The translations under genes and the position numbers were made by a program. From Microbulbifer sp. YPW16 (lineage in GTDB: Bacteria; Pseudomonadota; Gammaproteobacteria; Pseudomonadales; Cellvibrionaceae): a stretch of DNA of 64,000 nt. The stretch's first letter is position 1. The number at the start of each line of letters is the position of its first letter. Below, piece after piece: positions 11,951 through 27,188 of the stretch. Under the pieces are notes generated by a model. The model searched no databases and was not told the DNA's origin. It saw only the letters and a list, made by a program, of their open reading frames with translations. The stretch covers positions 3,242,001-3,306,000 of the forward strand of contig NZ_CP089928.1 in NCBI RefSeq assembly GCF_021290385.1, in the 5' to 3' direction.

Positions 11951-12664
11951 TCAGGAAATCTTGCCGGTAACGCGCACCCGTTTGGCTCCGGGGACGATCC
12001 TTACCTGCTGGCTGCGGCGGCGCTCGATGCCCGCGTCGATGGCATTCTTCGCCGCGATCAGCAGCCCGGCCACCAGGAAAGCGCCCGGCGGCAGTACCGC
12101 CACCAGGAAGCCCGGGTAGTCACTGCCCAGTACCGGGATGGCCCAGTCCCTGGCGACCGGTCCCAGTAACAGGTCCATGTCCGCGAACAGGGTACCCTGG
12201 CCCAGTATTTCGCGGATGGCCCCAATCGCAATCAGCACCGCCATAAAGCCCAGCCCCATCATGAAGCCGTCCACCACCGACGGCAGGACCGGGTTCTTGC
12301 TGGCGAAAGCATCGGCGCGGCCGAGAATTGCGCAGTTGGTGACAATCAGCGGGATAAAAATGCCCAGCACCAGGTAGAGCTCATAAGTGAACGCCTTCAT
12401 CAGCAGTTCAGCACAGGTCACAAAGGTGGCAATGATCATCACCGACACTGGCAGCCGCACGGTCTCCGGCATCTGCCGGCGCACGATGGACACTGCCAGG
12501 TTGGAGCAGGTCAGTACACCGATGGTGGCCAGGCCCAGGCCGATCGCATTGACCACCGTACCGGTAACCGCCAGCAGCGGGCACAGGCCCAGCAGTTGTA
12601 CCAGGGCCGGGTTATTGTTCCACAGGCCGTTGCGGCTGATCTCGCTATAGCCGGGTGTTGCCAT
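11951..12664 (-). CDS. rsxE: Electron transport complex subunit RsxE/RnfE
   Basis: A 237-residue integral membrane subunit of the Rnf/Rsx ion-translocating ferredoxin:NAD oxidoreductase-like complex. RsxA and RsxE are homologous, inversely oriented membrane subunits with about six helices each, which together hold an iron-sulfur centre; here the [14 protein letters not shown] and IVTNCAIL segments carry the conserved cysteines. The ATG at 12664 is chosen because AGGAGG lies just upstream and it begins one base after the rsxG stop. A longer in-frame start reading through rsxG is rejected. It is the last gene of the rsxABCDGE operon. Confidence 0.93.
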
Positions 12665-12665
12665 C

Positions 12666-13346
12666 TTACTGCTCCTCCTGGCCGGACTCGGTGGGCTGCT
12701 CAACTTCCACCGCACGCTCGGAAACGGGCGCGGAGAAAATTTCCTTGCGGTGTTCGGCGACGAAATCCAGCACCTCGCGCACCTGTGTCACCACGGCCCG
12801 CGGGGTGATGGTGGCGCCGGAGAACTGGTCGAAGGCTCCGCCGTCCTTCTGTACCTTCCACTGGCCCCGCGGTGGGTTACCCAGCGACTTGCCATTGAAG
12901 CCCAGGATCCAGTCGCTTTTCTTGACCTCGATCTTGTCGCCCAGGCCCGGGGTTTCACTGTGGCTGGTTACCCGTACCCCTGCAACAGTACCGTCCCGGT
13001 TGACGCCCACCAGCAGGTTGATGGGGCCGCCGTAACCATCCGGCGCGACTGTGGGAATAATGACTGCACTGATACGGCCTTCCTCGCGCGCCAGGTTGAT
13101 ATCGCCACCGTCCTTCAGGCCCAGGCGCGACCAGTACTGGCGCGGGATGGGATAGGTGTCCACCAGCATGTCGTTGCTGTGACGGTCCAGCGGGATGATT
13201 TCCAGCAGTGCCTTGGCCGAGGCTTCGCGAATGGCCCGCTCGATGGGCTCGCGGGTGGTGATCTGGGTTATTGCCAGGGTGCCCGCGGTCACCAGGGCGA
13301 ACAGCGCCAGGATAACCGCATTGCTGGCCATGGAGCGTTTCAGCAT
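12666..13346 (-). CDS. rsxG: Electron transport complex subunit RsxG/RnfG
   Basis: A 226-residue subunit with one N-terminal membrane anchor (about residues 8-28) and a periplasmic FMN-binding domain. The FMN is attached covalently to a threonine in the SGAT[IL]T motif, here FSGATIT near residue 180. It passes electrons between the RsxD flavin and the rest of the complex. It starts on the stop codon of rsxD and ends one base before rsxE, indicating tight translational coupling. The acidic C-terminal tail ([12 protein letters not shown]) is unremarkable. Confidence 0.93.
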
Positions 13347-18172: not shown

Positions 18173-21058
18173 ATGGATTTCCTCTCGCGCCGGTCCCCCG
18201 CCGGTGAGGTACTCGAAAGTCTTGGCCTGGATAAAGAGGTGGAGTTGCTGTTGGCCCTGGATGGCCTGCAACGCCACTGGCCGGACCTGCAGAGCGGCAC
18301 TGCCGCCAGCTCCCCCCTGGATTACCTGTTTACCCTGGAGGATGAGCTGGACTCCCAGCGCCCGCGGCTGGAACAGCTGGATATCGATCCGGCGCCCCTG
18401 GCGCAGCTGGCTGCCAGCCTGCGGGGCGCCTATGCCGACAGTGTGCCGGCACCGCTGCGCCGGCTATTGCGGCGGGTGGACAGTTTTGCCGATAGCGCAG
18501 GTGATGATCCGGGCCTGGTGCAACTGCAGCTGTTGGATAGCTCTGCCGCCACAGAAGCCGCGTTGCCGGCCGGAAGCCCAACACTGGCCGTGGGTGGAGA
18601 GGGCGGGGCGCAACTCGAGCTCGAGGCCTGCGACCGGCCGGAATTCATGCCGGTAGCTGCTGTCGGCGCGGGCGCCGGCCTGGAACCACTGCGGATCGGC
18701 CTGGCGGGCCAGTTGCACGCTCGGGGGCAGTTGGGCGGTGATGTGTCGGGTGGCGGTCCGACGGGCGGCATCGTGGCCCATGCCGACGGTGAAGCCCATG
18801 GCCGGCTCGATTACTGGTTCCATGTGCCCGCGGGCGCGCGCTTCGCTGCCGCCGCCGCCACCAGCCTGCGGCAGCTGCCATCCCCCTTCGATATAGAAGC
18901 AATTGCCGCCGCCGACGACCTGGCCGCACTGCACTGGCAGTCCGCCGGCCGCCTGGACGCCGGGCTGGAGCTGGAGTACAGCCTGCTGTCGGCCACCGGG
19001 GCGGTTGTGGCGGATGCGGGCCTGACTCTGTCTGCCAGTTACCGGGCAGAGCGGGAATTGCAACTTACCGCCTGGCCGGAAGGTGGGCGACTGGCGCTGC
19101 GGATCCGGCGCATCCGCGGCAGTGAAAGGAGTGGCAGTGCCGGGCTGGGTATCCAACTGGATATTTCCGGGCTGGTGGACCAGGTACGTGAGCGCCTGGT
19201 AGAGCCCTGTCTTCGCGACTACGAGTCGCTCTACCAGCGCTTTGGTGCGTACCTGAAGCCGGGCGACCTGCTGCAGACAGAGTACCGCGAGCTGCTGGAT
19301 GCTGTGGTGGCCAACGTGACGACGGACCCGGACCTGCAGACCCTGTTGCGCCTGGCCGGCGGTGCCGAAACGGACCAGGATAGCCTGCGGCAATCGGTGG
19401 CGGAGCAACTGGTGCGCTGGCTGGACAGTGGCCCGGGGGTTTTCAGTCGCGCCACGGAACCGGCGCTGGCCCGCGAGGGGGCGGCCGCCGTTATCGAGGC
19501 CCTGCCTGCCGGGGTACCCCCGCAGTTGCGCGGGCGTATTGCCGACGAGGTTCATGGATTGCTGGATTCGCTGCAGGGCAAGCTGGCGGAAACGGTTGAG
19601 GAGCAGGCGGCGGATGCCGCCGGGGCCCTGGTGGATGAGCTGGCCGGACTGGGCGGCAGTGTCGCCAGCGCAGTAGAGTCCGCCTCCGGTCAGCTGGACG
19701 CGGCACTGGCCGGTGTCCGCGCGGCACTGGAGAAAATCGACGCGCGTATTCGCGCACTGGCCGCGAAGATCGAGGCCGTGGCACGGCGCAGGATCGAATT
19801 AACAGTCCTCGGGCGGGAACAGCGATTGCGCCGGCAGGAAGCGGAAATCGAGCTGCGCCTGGAACCGGGCTCTGCAGCCGGTTCCGAGCTCTATCGCCGG
19901 CTGCTCTCTGGTGACCTGGAGGCGCTGGCCGCGCTGGTGGACGGGACTGCGGAGTCCCTGCCGGGCCTGGAACTGGTTGCCGGCAGTGCCAGCGACCTGC
20001 TGGAGCGCCGGGAAACCCGCGGCAGTGAGATGGCGTTGCTGGGGTTGTCCCTCGGTAGCCTGTCGATCGTCGACAGTCGTGTGCAGGTGGAGCAGGACCT
20101 GGCGGGTAATGTTGCCATCCAGTCGCGGCTGGAAGTGCAGCGGGCACTGGACGGTATCCGTGAACAGCAATCAGCGGGCTTCCTGTCCCTGCTCAATATA
20201 CGTCGCGGTGGGCAGCGCAGCCTGCCCCTTAATCTCACCGTCACCCAGCGTGATGAGCGACTGCAGCTCGATGAGCTGGAAATGTTTGTCGATACCCTGG
20301 TAACGAGCGGCCTGCTGTCGCCGGAAGCGGGCCGGCTTGCCGTACAGGGCTACTGCCAGTGGCAGGAACGTGCGGGTAGCGGGTTTATCAATGCACGGAT
20401 TGAGGCCCGGCTTGCGCTGGAGGGAGAGGCGCTGGAATCCCTGCTGAACTATGCGGATCCGGGAAATACCTCTGATACCCAGCTGCTATCTGATGTATTA
20501 CAGGCGCTGCGGGACTTTGACGTGATCAGTGAAAACCGCCAGGCAATTGCCTGCCGGGCAGTGCGGCAATTGCACCGACGCTATCGCCATTATGAGGGGG
20601 CCATCGGCCTCTTCACTGAATTCAATGCCGGCCCGCGGAGTGAGGACCGGCCCCTGGCGGGCCGCGATGATTTCTTTGCGGCGCCGTTTGCCAATTGCCT
20701 GGAAAACCCCCAGGTGCGGAGCCTGGACTCCCGTGGCCTGCGGGATGCCCGCCGCATGCATCTGTTTGCCAAGAGCTGGGCATTGATACTGCGCAAACTG
20801 CACCAGCACTACCACGCTGGTAATGGCATCGGGGACGGGACGGGGCTTGACCGGGACAACCGCCTGCTGGCGTTCTGCCTGCACCGCTGGTTGCGGGTAA
20901 AACAGCATTTCCTGTTCCACCCTGCCGACAGTATGTCAAAACAGACCATGGCATTTGTCGGCCTGCTGGCGCGGGCTGCGGGAATGGATGGCGATCCACC
21001 CCTCGCGATTGTGATGGAACTGGAGGGAGAGCCACAGTCCCTGCGGCTCTATAGCTGA
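18173..21058 (+). CDS. Large protein of unknown function
   Basis: A 961-residue protein that I do not recognise. It has no signal peptide or membrane segment. Residues 1-130 look helical. About 130-340 is rich in Gly, Ala and alternating hydrophobic residues and may be beta-rich. About 460-565 is an Ala/Glu/Arg-rich coiled coil (containing ALEKIDARIRALAAKIEAV). The C-terminal 250 residues are a mixed domain with several Arg/His/Trp-rich helices (for example LHRRYRHYEGAIGLF). Start: ATG at 18173 with AAGGAG 6 bases upstream; the longer open frame to 17876 lacks a start signal. It converges on a class 3 lipase 55 bases away. A scaffold or lipase-partner role is possible but unproven. Confidence 0.7.
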   Translation: MDFLSRRSPAGEVLESLGLDKEVELLLALDGLQRHWPDLQSGTAASSPLDYLFTLEDELDSQRPRLEQLDIDPAPLAQLAASLRGAYADSVPAPLRRLLRRVDSFADSAGDDPGLVQLQLLDSSAATEAALPAGSPTLAVGGEGGAQLELEACDRPEFMPVAAVGAGAGLEPLRIGLAGQLHARGQLGGDVSGGGPTGGIVAHADGEAHGRLDYWFHVPAGARFAAAAATSLRQLPSPFDIEAIAAADDLAALHWQSAGRLDAGLELEYSLLSATGAVVADAGLTLSASYRAERELQLTAWPEGGRLALRIRRIRGSERSGSAGLGIQLDISGLVDQVRERLVEPCLRDYESLYQRFGAYLKPGDLLQTEYRELLDAVVANVTTDPDLQTLLRLAGGAETDQDSLRQSVAEQLVRWLDSGPGVFSRATEPALAREGAAAVIEALPAGVPPQLRGRIADEVHGLLDSLQGKLAETVEEQAADAAGALVDELAGLGGSVASAVESASGQLDAALAGVRAALEKIDARIRALAAKIEAVARRRIELTVLGREQRLRRQEAEIELRLEPGSAAGSELYRRLLSGDLEALAALVDGTAESLPGLELVAGSASDLLERRETRGSEMALLGLSLGSLSIVDSRVQVEQDLAGNVAIQSRLEVQRALDGIREQQSAGFLSLLNIRRGGQRSLPLNLTVTQRDERLQLDELEMFVDTLVTSGLLSPEAGRLAVQGYCQWQERAGSGFINARIEARLALEGEALESLLNYADPGNTSDTQLLSDVLQALRDFDVISENRQAIACRAVRQLHRRYRHYEGAIGLFTEFNAGPRSEDRPLAGRDDFFAAPFANCLENPQVRSLDSRGLRDARRMHLFAKSWALILRKLHQHYHAGNGIGDGTGLDRDNRLLAFCLHRWLRVKQHFLFHPADSMSKQTMAFVGLLARAAGMDGDPPLAIVMELEGEPQSLRLYS

Positions 21059-21113
21059 ACATTGCCCGATTGGCTGGGAGCGGAATTGCCGGTGATTAAG
21101 CGGTAGTTCCGGC

Positions 21114-22418
21114 TCAGTCCTCGGTCTCGCTTTCAGTCTCCTTACTTCGCGCCGGTTGCTTGCGCGGTGCCGGCGACTTGCCGGAGGTTGCAGTCCTGCG
21201 TTTACGCGTGGTTGTGGCCTTCTTCGCCGGTGCCTTGCCTGCGGTGGTCTTTTTCCGGGCGCTGTCCGCCGGGCCAGAATCTACCGGGGCGGCGGTTTCC
21301 CGGGTGGCTTCCTCCACCGGCACGGTTTCCGGTGAACTTGTGGGCACGGCTGCGGACCGCAGCAGGTTGAGGTTGCGGCGCAGCATATGGGCCTGCAGCA
21401 TATCGCTGTAAAGCCGGATGGAGTGGAAACCGGCCACACCCTTTACGTCGGGCAGGGTGCTGAGCCAGGCGCGCCAGATACTCTGCATGCGCCAGAAGAT
21501 ATTCGCCGAGAAATCCACACGCATTTTGCGGAAACCGAAATTGTTCTCATCGGGATCGTTGGGCGCATGCTTGATAAACACCCGGAATCCCGTGTGGTAA
21601 TAGCCCAGCACCTTCTGGCGCAGCCAGCGGGCCAGGTGCAAGGTACCGTTCAGTGGGATAAGGCGCAGCAGGGCGAGCACAGCACCAAACCCGTAACCGA
21701 ACGGAACCATCGGCACAGGGTCGCCGCCCATCTCGAGTCGGTAGATGGGTGTTTTCACCCGGCGAAAGTAAGGCTGGTCACCGGTGCGGGGGCAGCCGTA
21801 GACATAGGTGGCACCGTCACCGTCCGGGTTCAGCTCCCTGGTGCAGATAAGCGCCAGCGCGCCGCCGAGGCTGTGGCCGAAAATGTACAGGGGCAACTGC
21901 GCCCTTTTCAGCAGGTCATTTTCAATCTGGGCGCGGACATTCTCGAAAGCCCGCTTGAAACCGGTATGAACCCGCCCCTGGTTGCCGGCCGGCATCAGTG
22001 GGAAACGCAGGTCGGTGATGATGTCCCAGGCATTCAATTCTGTGCCGCGGAAGCACAGCACCAGTACTTTATGGCCTCCGCCGCCATCCATTTGTGCCAG
22101 CAGTGCCTGGGTCTCTGACACATCATAAAAATTGATCGGCTCAAAGTTGTTGTCCTGCAGAATATGGCGGATATCCGGTTCGAGCCCACAGCTATTGCTG
22201 TGCAGGTGGCTGCTCCAGGCGGCCAGGACTTCCCGGCGCTCGGTATCATTGCTGCATTTGCCCAGCTTGTGCAGCAGGCCAGTCAGGTCAGCATCGGGTG
22301 TAAAAGGCTCGTAGACCAGCCTGGACAGCTCGGCACCGATATAGGCCATGCGATCGCTGTAGGCGGCGCGGCCCATGGGCAGGCCCGGCAGGCGTTTCAT
22401 TCCCTCGAAGTAATCCAC
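21114..22418 (-). CDS. Class 3 lipase family protein with basic C-terminal tail
   Basis: A 434-residue protein of the fungal-lipase (class 3) alpha/beta-hydrolase family, which hydrolyses ester bonds of acylglycerols or phospholipids. The nucleophile elbow is GHSLGGA with Ser 183; the oxyanion region is LCFRGTE (about 121-127), and GDPVPMVP after it probably supplies the catalytic Asp. The hydrolase ends near residue 355. It is followed by about 80 residues rich in Lys, Arg, Ala, Thr and Ser (AKKATTTRKRR), resembling histone H1-like tails. There is no signal peptide, so it is cytoplasmic or exported by a non-Sec route. The gene faces the 961-residue protein gene. Confidence 0.85.
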   Translation of the reverse strand: MDYFEGMKRLPGLPMGRAAYSDRMAYIGAELSRLVYEPFTPDADLTGLLHKLGKCSNDTERREVLAAWSSHLHSNSCGLEPDIRHILQDNNFEPINFYDVSETQALLAQMDGGGGHKVLVLCFRGTELNAWDIITDLRFPLMPAGNQGRVHTGFKRAFENVRAQIENDLLKRAQLPLYIFGHSLGGALALICTRELNPDGDGATYVYGCPRTGDQPYFRRVKTPIYRLEMGGDPVPMVPFGYGFGAVLALLRLIPLNGTLHLARWLRQKVLGYYHTGFRVFIKHAPNDPDENNFGFRKMRVDFSANIFWRMQSIWRAWLSTLPDVKGVAGFHSIRLYSDMLQAHMLRRNLNLLRSAAVPTSSPETVPVEEATRETAAPVDSGPADSARKKTTAGKAPAKKATTTRKRRTATSGKSPAPRKQPARSKETESETED

Positions 22419-22677
22419 GGCTATTCTCCTTGATTATCATCTGCTCCCGGCACGGGGGCTGCAGTGGCAGCACGTATTATTGTGGCAGTGGCCAGCAGGT
22501 TAGCTGAGTTTAACCGGTTTACGTCGTGGTTAAAGTGCCGCCTGGCTGGTTATCGCCACAGAACATTATCCAGCCCTTCAGGAAAGCAGGGTAAGTTGTT
22601 GAATTCTTTTAGGCATGCATACTTGCCAGGCTGGAAAAAATTATTGAATGGCCTGCCGCTTACAGGGACAGCAATCC

Positions 22678-23223
22678 ATGATCCGAAACGTCGATAATGC
22701 CGATGCCCGGCCAATTGCAGATATCTATAACCACTACATCTCCAGTAGCTTTGCCACATTCGAAGAGAAGCCAGTTTCGGAGCAGGCGATGCGGGAGCGG
22801 TTCGCCGGCATCGCCGCACAGGACCTCCCCTGGCTGGTGGCCGAGAACGACAGTGATGATTTGGTTGGCTACGCCTATGCCACCGGCTGGAGAGCCCGTT
22901 CCGCCTACCGCCACTCGGTGGAGATTACCGTTTATGTTGCGCACACCGAGCTGTCCTGTGGCTGGGGCAGGCGCCTCTACGATGCCCTGTTCAGGAGGCT
23001 GGAGATTCTCCAGGTACATTGTGTAATCGCTGGCATCACGCTGCCCAATCCGGCCAGTGTGTCCCTGCATGAGCACTTTGGTATGAAAAAGGTGGCCCAC
23101 TTCGAGCAGGTGGGCAGGAAATTCGGCCAGTGGGTCGATGTGGGATACTGGCAGCGGTTACTGGATATCGCTGGAATCGAGAGCCTGCAGCCTTCGCATG
23201 GGTTGCCAGATCCTGCTGGTTGA
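22678..23223 (+). CDS. GNAT acetyltransferase, phosphinothricin/amino-acid acetyltransferase type
   Basis: A 181-residue GNAT enzyme. The N-terminus (IRNVDNADARPIADIYNHYI..FATFEE) is characteristic of the PAT/YncA group, which N-acetylates phosphinothricin, methionine sulfoximine or related amino acids using acetyl-CoA. The acetyl-CoA site covers VYVAHTELSCGWGRRLYDAL, although the usual R/Q-GxG-x-G/A loop is degenerate, and NPASVSLHEHFGM is the family's C-terminal motif. ATG 22678 is chosen for the fit to the family N-terminus. The gene is divergent from the lipase. Confidence 0.85.
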   Translation: MIRNVDNADARPIADIYNHYISSSFATFEEKPVSEQAMRERFAGIAAQDLPWLVAENDSDDLVGYAYATGWRARSAYRHSVEITVYVAHTELSCGWGRRLYDALFRRLEILQVHCVIAGITLPNPASVSLHEHFGMKKVAHFEQVGRKFGQWVDVGYWQRLLDIAGIESLQPSHGLPDPAG

Positions 23224-23392
23224 TTGCGGGTTTCCGTAAAGAAGCGTCATTTCGGTTGCCCGCTTGCCGTTGGCCCTTGAAGGTCTGTTTGCCGACCCGC
23301 ACCGTAGATATCCCGGCCAGCTTTCGACAACCGGCGAGGCGGCCAACCGGACTGTCGAATCCGTCCGCAATCCATTCACAGGAGTAAAGAGT

Positions 23393-24268
23393 ATGTCCGA
23401 CACCACCTACACCCCGCCCAGAGTCTGGAAATGGGATGCCGGTAGCGGGGGCAGGTTTGCCAATATCAATCGCCCCGTGGCCGGCCCCACGCACGAGCGC
23501 GAGTTGCCGGTGGGTGAGCATCCCCTGCAGCTCTATTCACTTGCGACACCAAACGGCGTCAAGGTAACCGTGATGCTGGAGGAACTGCTGGCCGCGGGTT
23601 TCGAGGGGGCCGAGTACGACGCCCACCTGGTCAATATCCTTGAGGGCGACCAGTTCGGCAGCGGCTTCGTGGACATCAACCCGAACTCCAAGATCCCCGC
23701 CCTGGTGGATCACAGCAGCGACCCGGCAATCCGGGTATTCGAGTCCGGCTCTATCCTTCTCTACCTGGCGGAGAAGTTCGATGCTTTCCTGCCCGCGGAC
23801 GCAGCGGGACGCACGGAGACCCTCAACTGGTTGTTCTGGCAGATGGGCACCGCCCCGCTGTTGGGCGGCGGCTTCGGGCACTTCTACGCGTATGCGCCGG
23901 AAAAGTATGAGTACCCGATCAATCGCTACACCATGGAAGTGAAGCGGCAGTTGGATGTGCTCGACCGGCGCCTGGCCGATCACCGCTATGTGGCCGGTAG
24001 TGGCTACACCATTGCCGATATGGCCATCTGGCCGTGGTTTGCAGCGGTGGTGCGCAACGAGGCCTACGACGCTGCTGAGTTCCTCGAGGCGCACACCTAT
24101 AGCAACGTAAATCGCTGGGTAGATGAGATTGGCGAGCGCCCGGCAGTGCAGCGGGGCAAGATGGTCAACCGCACCTGGGGCGAACCCAGTGGGCAATTGC
24201 GGGAACGGCACGATGCCGCTGATTTTGCCACCCGCACCCAGGACAAGCTGGCCGAAGAAGAGGCCTGA
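23393..24268 (+). CDS. yghU: Glutathione-dependent disulfide-bond oxidoreductase, YghU type (copy 1)
   Basis: A 291-residue glutathione transferase-like protein of the nu class (E. coli YghU/YfcG), which reduces disulfides and organic peroxides with glutathione rather than conjugating it. The family N-terminus (TYTPPRVWKWD..GGRFANINRPVAGPTHE) is present. The thioredoxin-like domain with NGVKVTVMLEEL lies at about residues 45-135 and the helical C-terminal domain (YTIADMAIWPW) follows. ATG 23393 has an AGGAG site upstream. A close paralogue lies 2 kb downstream at 26307. Confidence 0.88.
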   Translation: MSDTTYTPPRVWKWDAGSGGRFANINRPVAGPTHERELPVGEHPLQLYSLATPNGVKVTVMLEELLAAGFEGAEYDAHLVNILEGDQFGSGFVDINPNSKIPALVDHSSDPAIRVFESGSILLYLAEKFDAFLPADAAGRTETLNWLFWQMGTAPLLGGGFGHFYAYAPEKYEYPINRYTMEVKRQLDVLDRRLADHRYVAGSGYTIADMAIWPWFAAVVRNEAYDAAEFLEAHTYSNVNRWVDEIGERPAVQRGKMVNRTWGEPSGQLRERHDAADFATRTQDKLAEEEA

Positions 24269-26093: not shown

Positions 26094-26306
26094 GGGCGAC
26101 TGACGGCCGCGGTCGCGATTCGGGATCTGCACACTATCCTTCCTGCAGAATGCAGCCCTGTTAACCAAGTGCCGGGCCTGTCTTATCGCCGCACGGCATA
26201 AGCCGTGAATCCGGGGCCAGCTGCCGATCATAATAAGATTGGGGTGGTCCTGTTTCGCAGTCCCTGTGGCGCTTTTTCCCGACAGGCTCCGGCGGGAGTC
26301 GCACAG

Positions 26307-27188
26307 ATGGCCGACGATACCTACACCCCGCCGAAGGTCTGGAAATGGGATCAGGACAGCGGCGGCAAGTTTTCCAATATCAACCGTCCCGTCGCCGGTC
26401 CCACCCACGAGAAAGCCCTGCCCCGGGGCGAGCATCCCCTGCAGCTGTACTCGCTGGCCACACCCAATGGAGTCAAGGTCACTATCATGCTGGAGGAACT
26501 GCTGGCGCTGGGCTTTGATGGGGCGGAATACGATGCCTTCCTGATCGATATAACCGAGGGCGACCAGTTCAGCAGTGGTTTTGTCGACGTAAATCCCAAC
26601 TCCAAGATACCGGCCCTGCTTGACCAGAGCATGCATCCACCGATCCGGGTATTCGAGAGCGGATCCATCCTGCTCTACCTGGCGGAAAAATTCAGTGCCT
26701 TCCTGCCGCATACCCCGGCGCAGCGCACCGAGGCCCTGAACTGGCTGTTCTGGCAGATGGGTGCCGGCCCGCTGCTGGGGGGGGGCTTCGGGCACTTCTA
26801 TGCCTACGCGCCCGAGCCCTACGAATACCCGATCAACCGCTACACGATGGAAGTGAAACGCCAGCTGGATGTGCTCGACCGCCAGCTGGCGGAACACCCG
26901 TATATCGCCGGAAGTGAATACACCATTGCCGACATGGCGATCTGGCCCTGGTATGGCGCGCTGGTGAAGGGCAGGGTATACGATGCCGCGGAATTCCTGC
27001 AGGCGCACACCTATCGCAATGTGCTCCGCTGGACCGATGAAATTGCCCGGCGGCCCGCGGTGCAGCGAGGACGTATGGTTAACCGCACCTGGGGCGAGCC
27101 GGAGGAACAGCTGCACGAGCGGCATGATGCAAGCGATTTCGAAAACCGGACCCAGGACAAGATCGGTGATGGTAACGGCGACGAGTGA
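26307..27188 (+). CDS. yghU: Glutathione-dependent disulfide-bond oxidoreductase, YghU type (copy 2)
   Basis: A 293-residue paralogue of the protein at 23393. The two share long identical stretches, for example the NGVKVT..MLEELLA region, SGFVDVNPNSKIPAL and RYTMEVKRQLDVLDR. The function is the same as for copy 1: glutathione-dependent reduction of disulfides or peroxides in the cytoplasm. The ATG at 26307 has GGGAG 8 bases upstream and aligns with the start of copy 1. It is followed after 18 bases by a small secreted protein gene and may be co-transcribed with it. Confidence 0.88.
   Translation: MADDTYTPPKVWKWDQDSGGKFSNINRPVAGPTHEKALPRGEHPLQLYSLATPNGVKVTIMLEELLALGFDGAEYDAFLIDITEGDQFSSGFVDVNPNSKIPALLDQSMHPPIRVFESGSILLYLAEKFSAFLPHTPAQRTEALNWLFWQMGAGPLLGGGFGHFYAYAPEPYEYPINRYTMEVKRQLDVLDRQLAEHPYIAGSEYTIADMAIWPWYGALVKGRVYDAAEFLQAHTYRNVLRWTDEIARRPAVQRGRMVNRTWGEPEEQLHERHDASDFENRTQDKIGDGNGDE

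Follow-up and report, generated by a model that had tools for sequence, protein, structure and literature searches.

Several lipases work with accessory proteins, among them the Lif foldase, colipase and lipid-droplet proteins such as MLDS. Outer-membrane beta-barrels (TonB-dependent transporters, OmpG, LptD) are built of long antiparallel amphipathic strands. For apolipoprotein B-100 (apoB-100), a pentapartite scheme of helical and amphipathic-strand parts has been described (PMC3090388). Here we analysed a window of 64,000 nucleotides from Microbulbifer sp. YPW16 (contig NZ_CP089928.1, positions 3,242,001 to 3,306,000; part of a single-contig 4.19-Mb genome, G000 in our numbering) in which the gene of a 961-aa protein of an unnamed family and the gene of a 434-aa class 3 lipase converge within the interval between rsxA and metG. 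The large gene was convergent with the lipase gene in every Microbulbifer genome that had it, and the large protein belongs to a family whose distant members also lie, in part, beside alpha/beta-hydrolase genes. We favour, at a probability of roughly 40%, a reading in which the 961-aa protein binds lipid or membrane in the cytoplasm and serves as a partner to intracellular hydrolases.

A dedicated non-catalytic partner would be of the same kind as in the Lif, colipase and MLDS-type arrangements. This pair differs from them in being convergent rather than operonic, in having a lipase that also occurs alone and in having no significant family match. The lipase shares its family and catalytic motifs with the described class 3 lipases (PF01764; PDB 1dt3, 3tgl) and differs from them by the lack of a signal peptide as judged by reading, a conserved N-terminal region of about 110 residues and a variable basic tail. 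The predicted order of parts in the 961-aa protein resembles the alternating helical and amphipathic-strand order of apoB-100, but the protein is about one fifth as long, has no significant sequence relation to apoB-100 or the large lipid transfer proteins and has no secretion signal; the likeness is one of working principle at most. Its long amphipathic strands resemble those of the outer-membrane barrels (structural alignment Z about 9-12), whereas large helical parts are interleaved with them and neither a signal peptide (by reading) nor a family match was found.

A convergent gene pair in Microbulbifer

The large gene (18173..21058, + strand) is an open reading frame of 961 aa that runs from an ATG at 18173 to a stop at 21058, with an AAGGAG ribosome-binding site ahead of its start. 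The lipase gene (21114..22418, - strand) runs from a GTG at 22418 to a stop at 21114, leaving a stop-to-stop gap of 55 bp (21059-21113); these coordinates agree with the original prediction, which had described a 961-residue protein and a lipase, convergent and 55 bases apart. The dN/dS of the large gene was 0.21-0.44 over the ten pairs of the five Microbulbifer copies, indicating purifying selection, as compared to 0.10-0.32 for the lipase, with synonymous sites partly saturated in these estimates. As dN/dS was low and full-length relatives were found in two classes, the large gene is more than a chance open reading frame; it is real and old.

The 434-aa protein matched Lipase_3 (PF01764) at 66.8 bits against a Pfam cut-off of 22 (E 2.4e-18). 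The motifs GHSLGG, GGDPVP and H(T/A)GF were kept in all nine orthologues, as were all three residues of the presumed triad S183, D233 and H275, in which the roles of D233 and H275 are presumably those known from the Lipase_3 family. By the Pfam cut-off and a triad with GxSxG the protein is a class 3 lipase, with lipid hydrolysis as its predicted activity. Inspection of the N-terminus by reading found no signal peptide and the start agreed with the starts of the orthologues, in line with the earlier claim that the lipase lacks one. The same prediction had noted an 80-residue basic tail, which is present here (residues 355-434; 21117..21356, - strand), but the tail was not conserved: a long basic tail occurred in only three of the nine orthologues (G000, G011, G027) and so does not define this lipase. 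As the lipases of two of the five genomes with the pair (G013, G068) had no long tail, the tail cannot be essential to pairing.

The large gene was found in 5 of 48 Microbulbifer genomes and was convergent with the lipase in all five, with 45-77% protein identity among the large proteins. The pair adjoined rsxA in four of these genomes. In the fifth (G027) the pair and one acetyltransferase gene lay at the dehydrogenase-metG end of the interval, and this placement (L031 7406-12819) represents a local rearrangement or a separate insertion. A search of 37 genus members gave lipase orthologues in eight, and reading of the locus added G068, for a total of 9 of 38 (a count that excludes G058-G067 of the 48 genomes), and orthologue-level matches were confined to Microbulbifer among the 58 genomes searched. 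Co-occurrence in other genomes, which the original prediction had put forward as a check on the pair, was one-sided in the genomes searched: all five copies of the large gene stood with a lipase, and the lipase also occurred alone, in four of its nine genomes (G012, G016, G021, G035). No large gene was found anywhere in these four at E 1. Remnants were searched for near the lone lipases by tblastn, with all 18 family members as queries and, as targets, 24 stretches lacking the large gene that were drawn from the four lone-lipase genomes and from 17 intervals read between metG and rsxA (G016 in both), and none was found. The sole match, at E 0.021, was inside the RsxC gene of G012, and the positive control (stretch L030) gave 9 lines. 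As the lipase stands alone in four of nine genomes it does not need the large gene, and the one-sided dependence argues against a toxin/antidote pair and against an obligatory foldase. As a partner, the large protein would be accessory, and not a required foldase or antidote, because the lipase persists without it.

When 30 of the 48 genomes were placed on an RsxC tree, those with the pair and those with a lone lipase were scattered through one side of 20 genomes, which points to frequent losses or transfers. G030, the sister of G000 and G011 on this tree, had neither gene, and its acetyltransferase gene was 65 bp from rsxA. Both RsxC and the large protein of G068 fell near those of G013, and an exchange of the lipase alone is possible there (L033 6686-8083, L030 8371-9507).

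The interval itself was then compared across the genus. MetG and RsxC relatives were present in all 48 genomes; the distance from metG to rsxC was 2.7-31.5 kb in 45 of them, two had the genes on different contigs and in G067 they were far apart. The names of rsxA-D and metG in the window were assigned by reading, with Pfam used on one rsx gene (11954-12715, Rnf-Nqr). Of 17 intervals read (G017 incompletely), six carry CRISPR-Cas on the rsxA side, between rsxA and the glutathione transferase gene or the lipase; Cas7 is of type I-C in two of them (G016, G017) and of type I-E in the other four (G005, G022, G033, G059). CRISPR-Cas was not noticed in eight other intervals read, the window included. 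The interval is a real insertion hot spot, as had been supposed, and offers a natural record of gene exchange in which CRISPR-Cas and the pair occupy the same side in different species. The intervals with CRISPR-Cas (L027, L073, L074, L081, L083, L084) belong to Microbulbifer species without the 961-aa gene, and in G016 the lipase and CRISPR-Cas lie side by side.

The original prediction had also drawn a comparison with Pseudomonas aeruginosa PAO1, in which metG and rsxA presumably flank the genes PA3484-PA3488. The cargo in that comparison agrees with a published account, which gives Tse3 as PA3484, Tsi3 as PA3485, VgrG4b as PA3486, PldA as PA3487 and Tli5a as PA3488 (PMC4899435). The lead to type VI cargo was not supported in the window: no VgrG was recognised between rsxA and metG, where the small genes were judged by reading with no Pfam scan, and the neighbour of the lipase was not immunity-like. 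Those interval proteins of the window that were run against Pfam matched no VgrG, PAAR or adaptor family, and no VgrG was recognised in the loci of the pair.

The large-protein family and its predicted architecture

The 961-aa protein matched no Pfam and no PADLOC family at E 1, and its best matches in NCBIfam (E 0.12) and PHROGs (E 0.25) were not significant. Neither protein of the pair matched PADLOC at E <=1, and thus no known anti-phage system model. By tblastn, the protein gave no significant match in plasmids and phages and four of its relatives gave none in plasmids; viral contigs gave no significant match with a five-row alignment or with the relative from G374. Nothing significant was found among PDB sequences, the best match of a nine-row profile being to a coiled-coil protein at E 0.023. 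These results support the earlier statement that the protein has no recognisable domain, and the profile and structure searches likewise gave no significant match to a known unrelated family, which would have spoken against the proposed pair.

A contig scan returned one match only, a close relative of the protein on NZ_JAJSAP010000004.1 of Microbulbifer sediminum TT37, a strain included in the 48-genome set. Successive genome samples were searched with a profile of the Microbulbifer copies, scoring few candidates per genome at first look, so divergent members may be missed. A sample of 390 genomes gave a full-length relative in another family of the same order (G374, E 1.7e-57), a class sample of 369 genomes gave no new member, a phylum sample of 398 genomes gave G992 and G1037 and a family-level sample of 144 genomes gave G1226. 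The class of G1037 gave no further member in 190 genomes, and the order of G992 gave 10 members in 178 genomes, nine of them new. Dropped before the counts were four matches at E 0.001-0.01 over stretches of 44-96 profile positions (G148, G383, G387, G398) and five matches of the genus search at E 0.05-0.4. The family thus has 18 members found, in two classes of Proteobacteria (G1037 in the other class), with 16-23% identity to the window protein outside Microbulbifer. Sixteen members are complete (886-979 aa); the G1445 gene lies in two different frames, and G1470 yielded a 648-aa piece near a contig start. Weak family matches other than to apolipoproteins were dropped because they were confined to one or two of the 18 members: GvpQ of NCBIfam, the strongest (best 9e-05, two members), Mbov_0729_Cterm and MCE of NCBIfam (two members each, 0.01 and 0.016), BshC and others, and DUF6987 (one member, 0.0041), DUF885 and others of Pfam. 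The family appears undescribed in the libraries searched; literature searches could not target an unnamed family directly.

The architecture was predicted with AlphaFold2. A first model from 5 rows was poor (pLDDT 51) and was excluded from the fold search, while the 18-row alignment gave a mean pLDDT of 71.1 and a pTM of 0.60. This model predicts alternating helical and beta parts along the + strand. The N-terminal helical part (residues 1-105, helices within 2-105; 18173..18487) had block pLDDT mostly of 57-84, with residues 1-10 below 50. It is followed by a first beta module (residues 115-330; 18515..19162), a helical part with long central helices (residues 332-537; 19166..19783; low confidence, block pLDDT 37-69), a second beta module of seven strands (residues 540-749; 19790..20419; block pLDDT 65-88) and a C-terminal mainly helical part (residues 751-961, helices within 751-935; 20423..21055), in which residues 821-825, 828-848 and 912-918 were below 50. 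Long central helices were predicted at 450-552 in the 5-row model and at 450-490 and 508-537, with low confidence, in the 18-row model, where a central coiled coil had been claimed earlier. No sequence relation between the two beta modules was detectable with hhalign, and no internal duplication was found. A TULIP (tubular lipid-binding) reading was considered from the first model and not adopted.

The first beta module is predicted to hold six long strands of 16-25 residues each (137-152, 170-191, 198-219, 250-274, 279-303 and 306-330), with block pLDDT of 86-92 over 201-270 and 281-320 and lower elsewhere. Averaged over the family, the hydrophobic/polar alternation was above that of shuffles in all six strands (p 0.0000-0.0105). 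In the window sequence alone, alternation reached p <0.05 in four of the six first-module strands and in three of the seven second-module strands. None of the 16 complete members showed a signal-like start when its first 30 residues were read, and the highest 19-residue hydropathy was 1.06-1.69 in 17 of the 18 members, indicating no membrane helix. The net charge of the members was -2 to -40. In VIA-align the top row was apolipoprotein B-100 (Z 12.4, 229 aligned residues, rmsd 7.0), and OmpG scored a Z of about 9; Foldseek gave E 0.41 for the apolipoprotein / large lipid transfer fold. We read the VIA-align likeness as a common arrangement of predicted long amphipathic strands and not as homology. 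Levi-like virus proteins topped the viral fold list (best E 0.039, rmsd 39) and were taken as noise.

Neighbours of distant relatives and readings of the pair

By our count the 18 members form ten contexts: Microbulbifer, genus g484 (four genomes), genus g805 (two genomes), G374, G992, G1037, G1226, G1426, G1445 and G1460. A convergent alpha/beta-hydrolase gene adjoined the large gene in four of the ten and, outside Microbulbifer, in three of nine. In G992 the neighbour was an Abhydrolase_1 protein (88 bits) whose gene overlaps the large gene by 4 bp. All four g484 members stood beside the gene of a 277-aa protein that carries the motifs HGMG and CHSLG and a late His, one copy having an in-frame stop, and the outer flanking genes differed in part among these genomes; at least one other g484 genome in the sample, G1153, had no family member. 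Three copies of the 277-aa protein were run against Pfam and matched nothing even at E 10, and the protein was unlike the far hydrolase piece of G374 or the window lipase (BLASTP, best E 0.025 over 49 residues and 3.0, respectively). In G374 the neighbour consisted of two hydrolase pieces parted by a Tn3-like transposase gene, the far piece matching Abhydrolase_6 (E 3.6e-5, 25.0 bits against a cut-off of 26.3) and the near piece having a GHSNG motif only, with no Pfam match at E 10. The other six contexts had a glycosyltransferase, DUF6942, a VOC protein, NUDIX (tandem, not convergent), ClpP and a beta-rich protein, of which the glycosyltransferase, VOC and beta-rich names were assigned by reading. 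On the upstream side of the large gene, reading of the ten contexts found no alpha/beta-hydrolase, with G1470 cut there by the contig end. If alpha/beta-hydrolases are assumed to make up some 1-2% of genes, the counts suggest an excess of hydrolase neighbours, with two of the assignments weak.

Other genes near these relatives were recorded as well. In G1517 (L118 8955-14019) the gene of a FadL/TodX-type outer-membrane protein follows the hydrolase beside the relative. The G374 relative lies in an apparent island (L039 1-20000) with two Tn3-like transposase genes, one of which splits the adjoining hydrolase, and a Vsr-like gene, all three named by reading. The island also has nuclease genes of EcoRII type and with GmrSD_C, a DUF1353 gene and a gene of the metallo-beta-lactamase fold. 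Just upstream of the G1226 relative and on the same strand (L099 6744-11658) are the genes of a GH108 muramidase and of a 367-aa hydrophobic protein, separated by only some 16 and 39 bp, which would suit an operon shared with the relative. In G1037 (L097 3178-4569) an AriA/HEC-01-like ATPase gene is about 5 kb from the relative.

In the reading that we favour, the large protein would be soluble and cytoplasmic, as suggested by hydropathy and reading, which gave neither a signal peptide nor a membrane helix, and its long amphipathic beta strands would bind lipid or a membrane surface. Its partner would be an intracellular alpha/beta-hydrolase encoded next to it (in the window, the class 3 lipase), and it may present lipid to the hydrolase, hold it on a lipid surface or restrain it. 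The top VIA-align row of apoB-100, the apoB-like order of parts and the FadL-type gene in G1517 speak for this reading. The data show that the genes form a pair which recurs within the genus, that strands alternate on the predicted model and that the enzyme is of the lipase family, whereas lipid binding, a physical interaction and the direction of any effect are our inferences. The lipase-partner pair of the original prediction gained from the five Microbulbifer copies out of five and from three of nine further contexts, and was held back by the four of nine lipase genomes without a partner. What had been a hypothetical protein of one genus is now an 18-member family in two classes with a predicted architecture, a recurrent enzyme neighbour and a testable function. 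A bolder extension, which we consider unlikely, is that a soluble proteobacterial family coats or carries cytoplasmic lipid in an apoB-like manner and was repeatedly and independently paired with different alpha/beta-hydrolases, as a bacterial counterpart of the lipoprotein particle and its lipase. Were the lipid-scaffold reading true, bacteria would have evolved apoB-like lipid handling next to lipases. A search of the literature on Microbulbifer and storage lipids gave none naming Microbulbifer among the matches listed.

Several results weigh against a lipid-binding hydrolase partner. The lipase is without the large gene in four of its nine genomes, six of the ten contexts have no adjoining alpha/beta-hydrolase, and in G374 and g484 the hydrolases were assigned from motifs or from a Pfam score below the cut-off. 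The histories of the two genes partly differ: G013 and G068 share 77% in the large protein and 67% in the lipase core, and the G068 lipase groups with that of G016 (91/88). On the structural side, Foldseek gave no matches at E <=0.001 against PDB and viral models, and in VIA-align outer-membrane transporters were tied with apoB (FecA 12.2, PiuA and PhuR 11.9). Alternation in the second module was weak in five of seven strands, reaching p <0.05 in the family average only in 540-563 and 739-749; soluble strands also alternate, and alternation was scored against shuffles rather than ordinary soluble strands. Pfam Apolipoprotein was matched by 6 of the 18 members (best E 0.00098) at scores far below the cut-off (18.4 and 15.2 bits, where shown, against 90); ApoLp-III was matched by one member at E 0.089, and the 16 families listed at E 0.1 included no other lipid-transfer model. 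In the partial G1445 reading, hydropathy peaks at 2.24 close to the C-terminus.

The alternative that survives best, although we think it somewhat unlikely, is that no functional link exists, the two genes being independent passengers of the hot spot and the hydrolases beside distant relatives coincidental. The many kinds of cargo taken by the interval, the partly different gene histories, the lone lipases, the six contexts without a hydrolase and the commonness of alpha/beta-hydrolases are all consistent with this. Adjacency in five of five genomes at 45-77% protein identity, preserved in G027 even though the pair sits at the opposite end there, argues otherwise, as do adjacency in all four g484 genomes having the gene, with outer flanks that partly differ, and the four of ten contexts against an assumed 1-2% background per gene.

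The same long amphipathic strands and barrel-like VIA-align rows, with OmpG at about 9 below FecA, PiuA and PhuR, would also suit a membrane-inserting barrel or pore former that acts with the lipase on the membranes of competitors, predators or the cell itself, and the same-strand muramidase gene two genes upstream of the G1226 relative is in keeping with such a role. We consider this quite unlikely, as reading showed no signal peptide, no delivery gene was recognised alongside, no family match was significant and the lipase is kept without the large protein; the VIA-align rows may show a common arrangement only.

An anti-phage pair, with the large protein as sensor or regulator and the hydrolase as effector, is more doubtful still. 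The distribution is patchy, CRISPR-Cas occupies the interval in other species (6 of 17), the G374 relative is near nuclease genes and, by reading, transposase genes, and an ATPase gene like AriA/HEC-01 is near the G1037 relative. However, PADLOC gave no match, reading of the other contexts revealed no recognisable defence genes close to the relatives, and a hydrolase that persists alone in four of nine genomes is unlike a toxic effector.

Lipase_3-type type VI effectors are known, and the interval is the one that presumably carries type VI cargo in PAO1. Even with type VI proteins reported in some Microbulbifer (PMC12388028), it is very improbable that the lipase is a type VI effector and the large protein its immunity protein, adaptor or carrier, as no VgrG was recognised between rsxA and metG (type VI loci were not searched for genome-wide), the large protein has neither the signal-like start nor the membrane-helix-like stretch of a periplasmic immunity protein and the lipase occurs without the partner in four of nine genomes.

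Other features of the interval

The gap between the two genes and the end of the lipase gene hold a strong hairpin (21072..21118; -28.9 kcal/mol, z -3.36), with 1 of 200 shuffles equally stable. The hairpin is terminator-like with no T run and was not called by the terminator scan; strong hairpins between convergent genes are not unusual. From the rsx side, the interval of the window contains the 961-aa gene, the lipase gene, a GNAT acetyltransferase gene (22648-23223, + strand), a glutathione transferase-like gene, a second acetyltransferase gene, a DUF4440 gene, a second glutathione transferase-like gene, a Sir2 gene, smaller genes and a 2-hydroxyacid dehydrogenase gene (by reading), followed by metG. 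The two glutathione transferase-like genes (23264-24268 and 26205-27188) are closely related, the second being named for its similarity to the first; by best match, the second recurs in most of the intervals read and the first in few.

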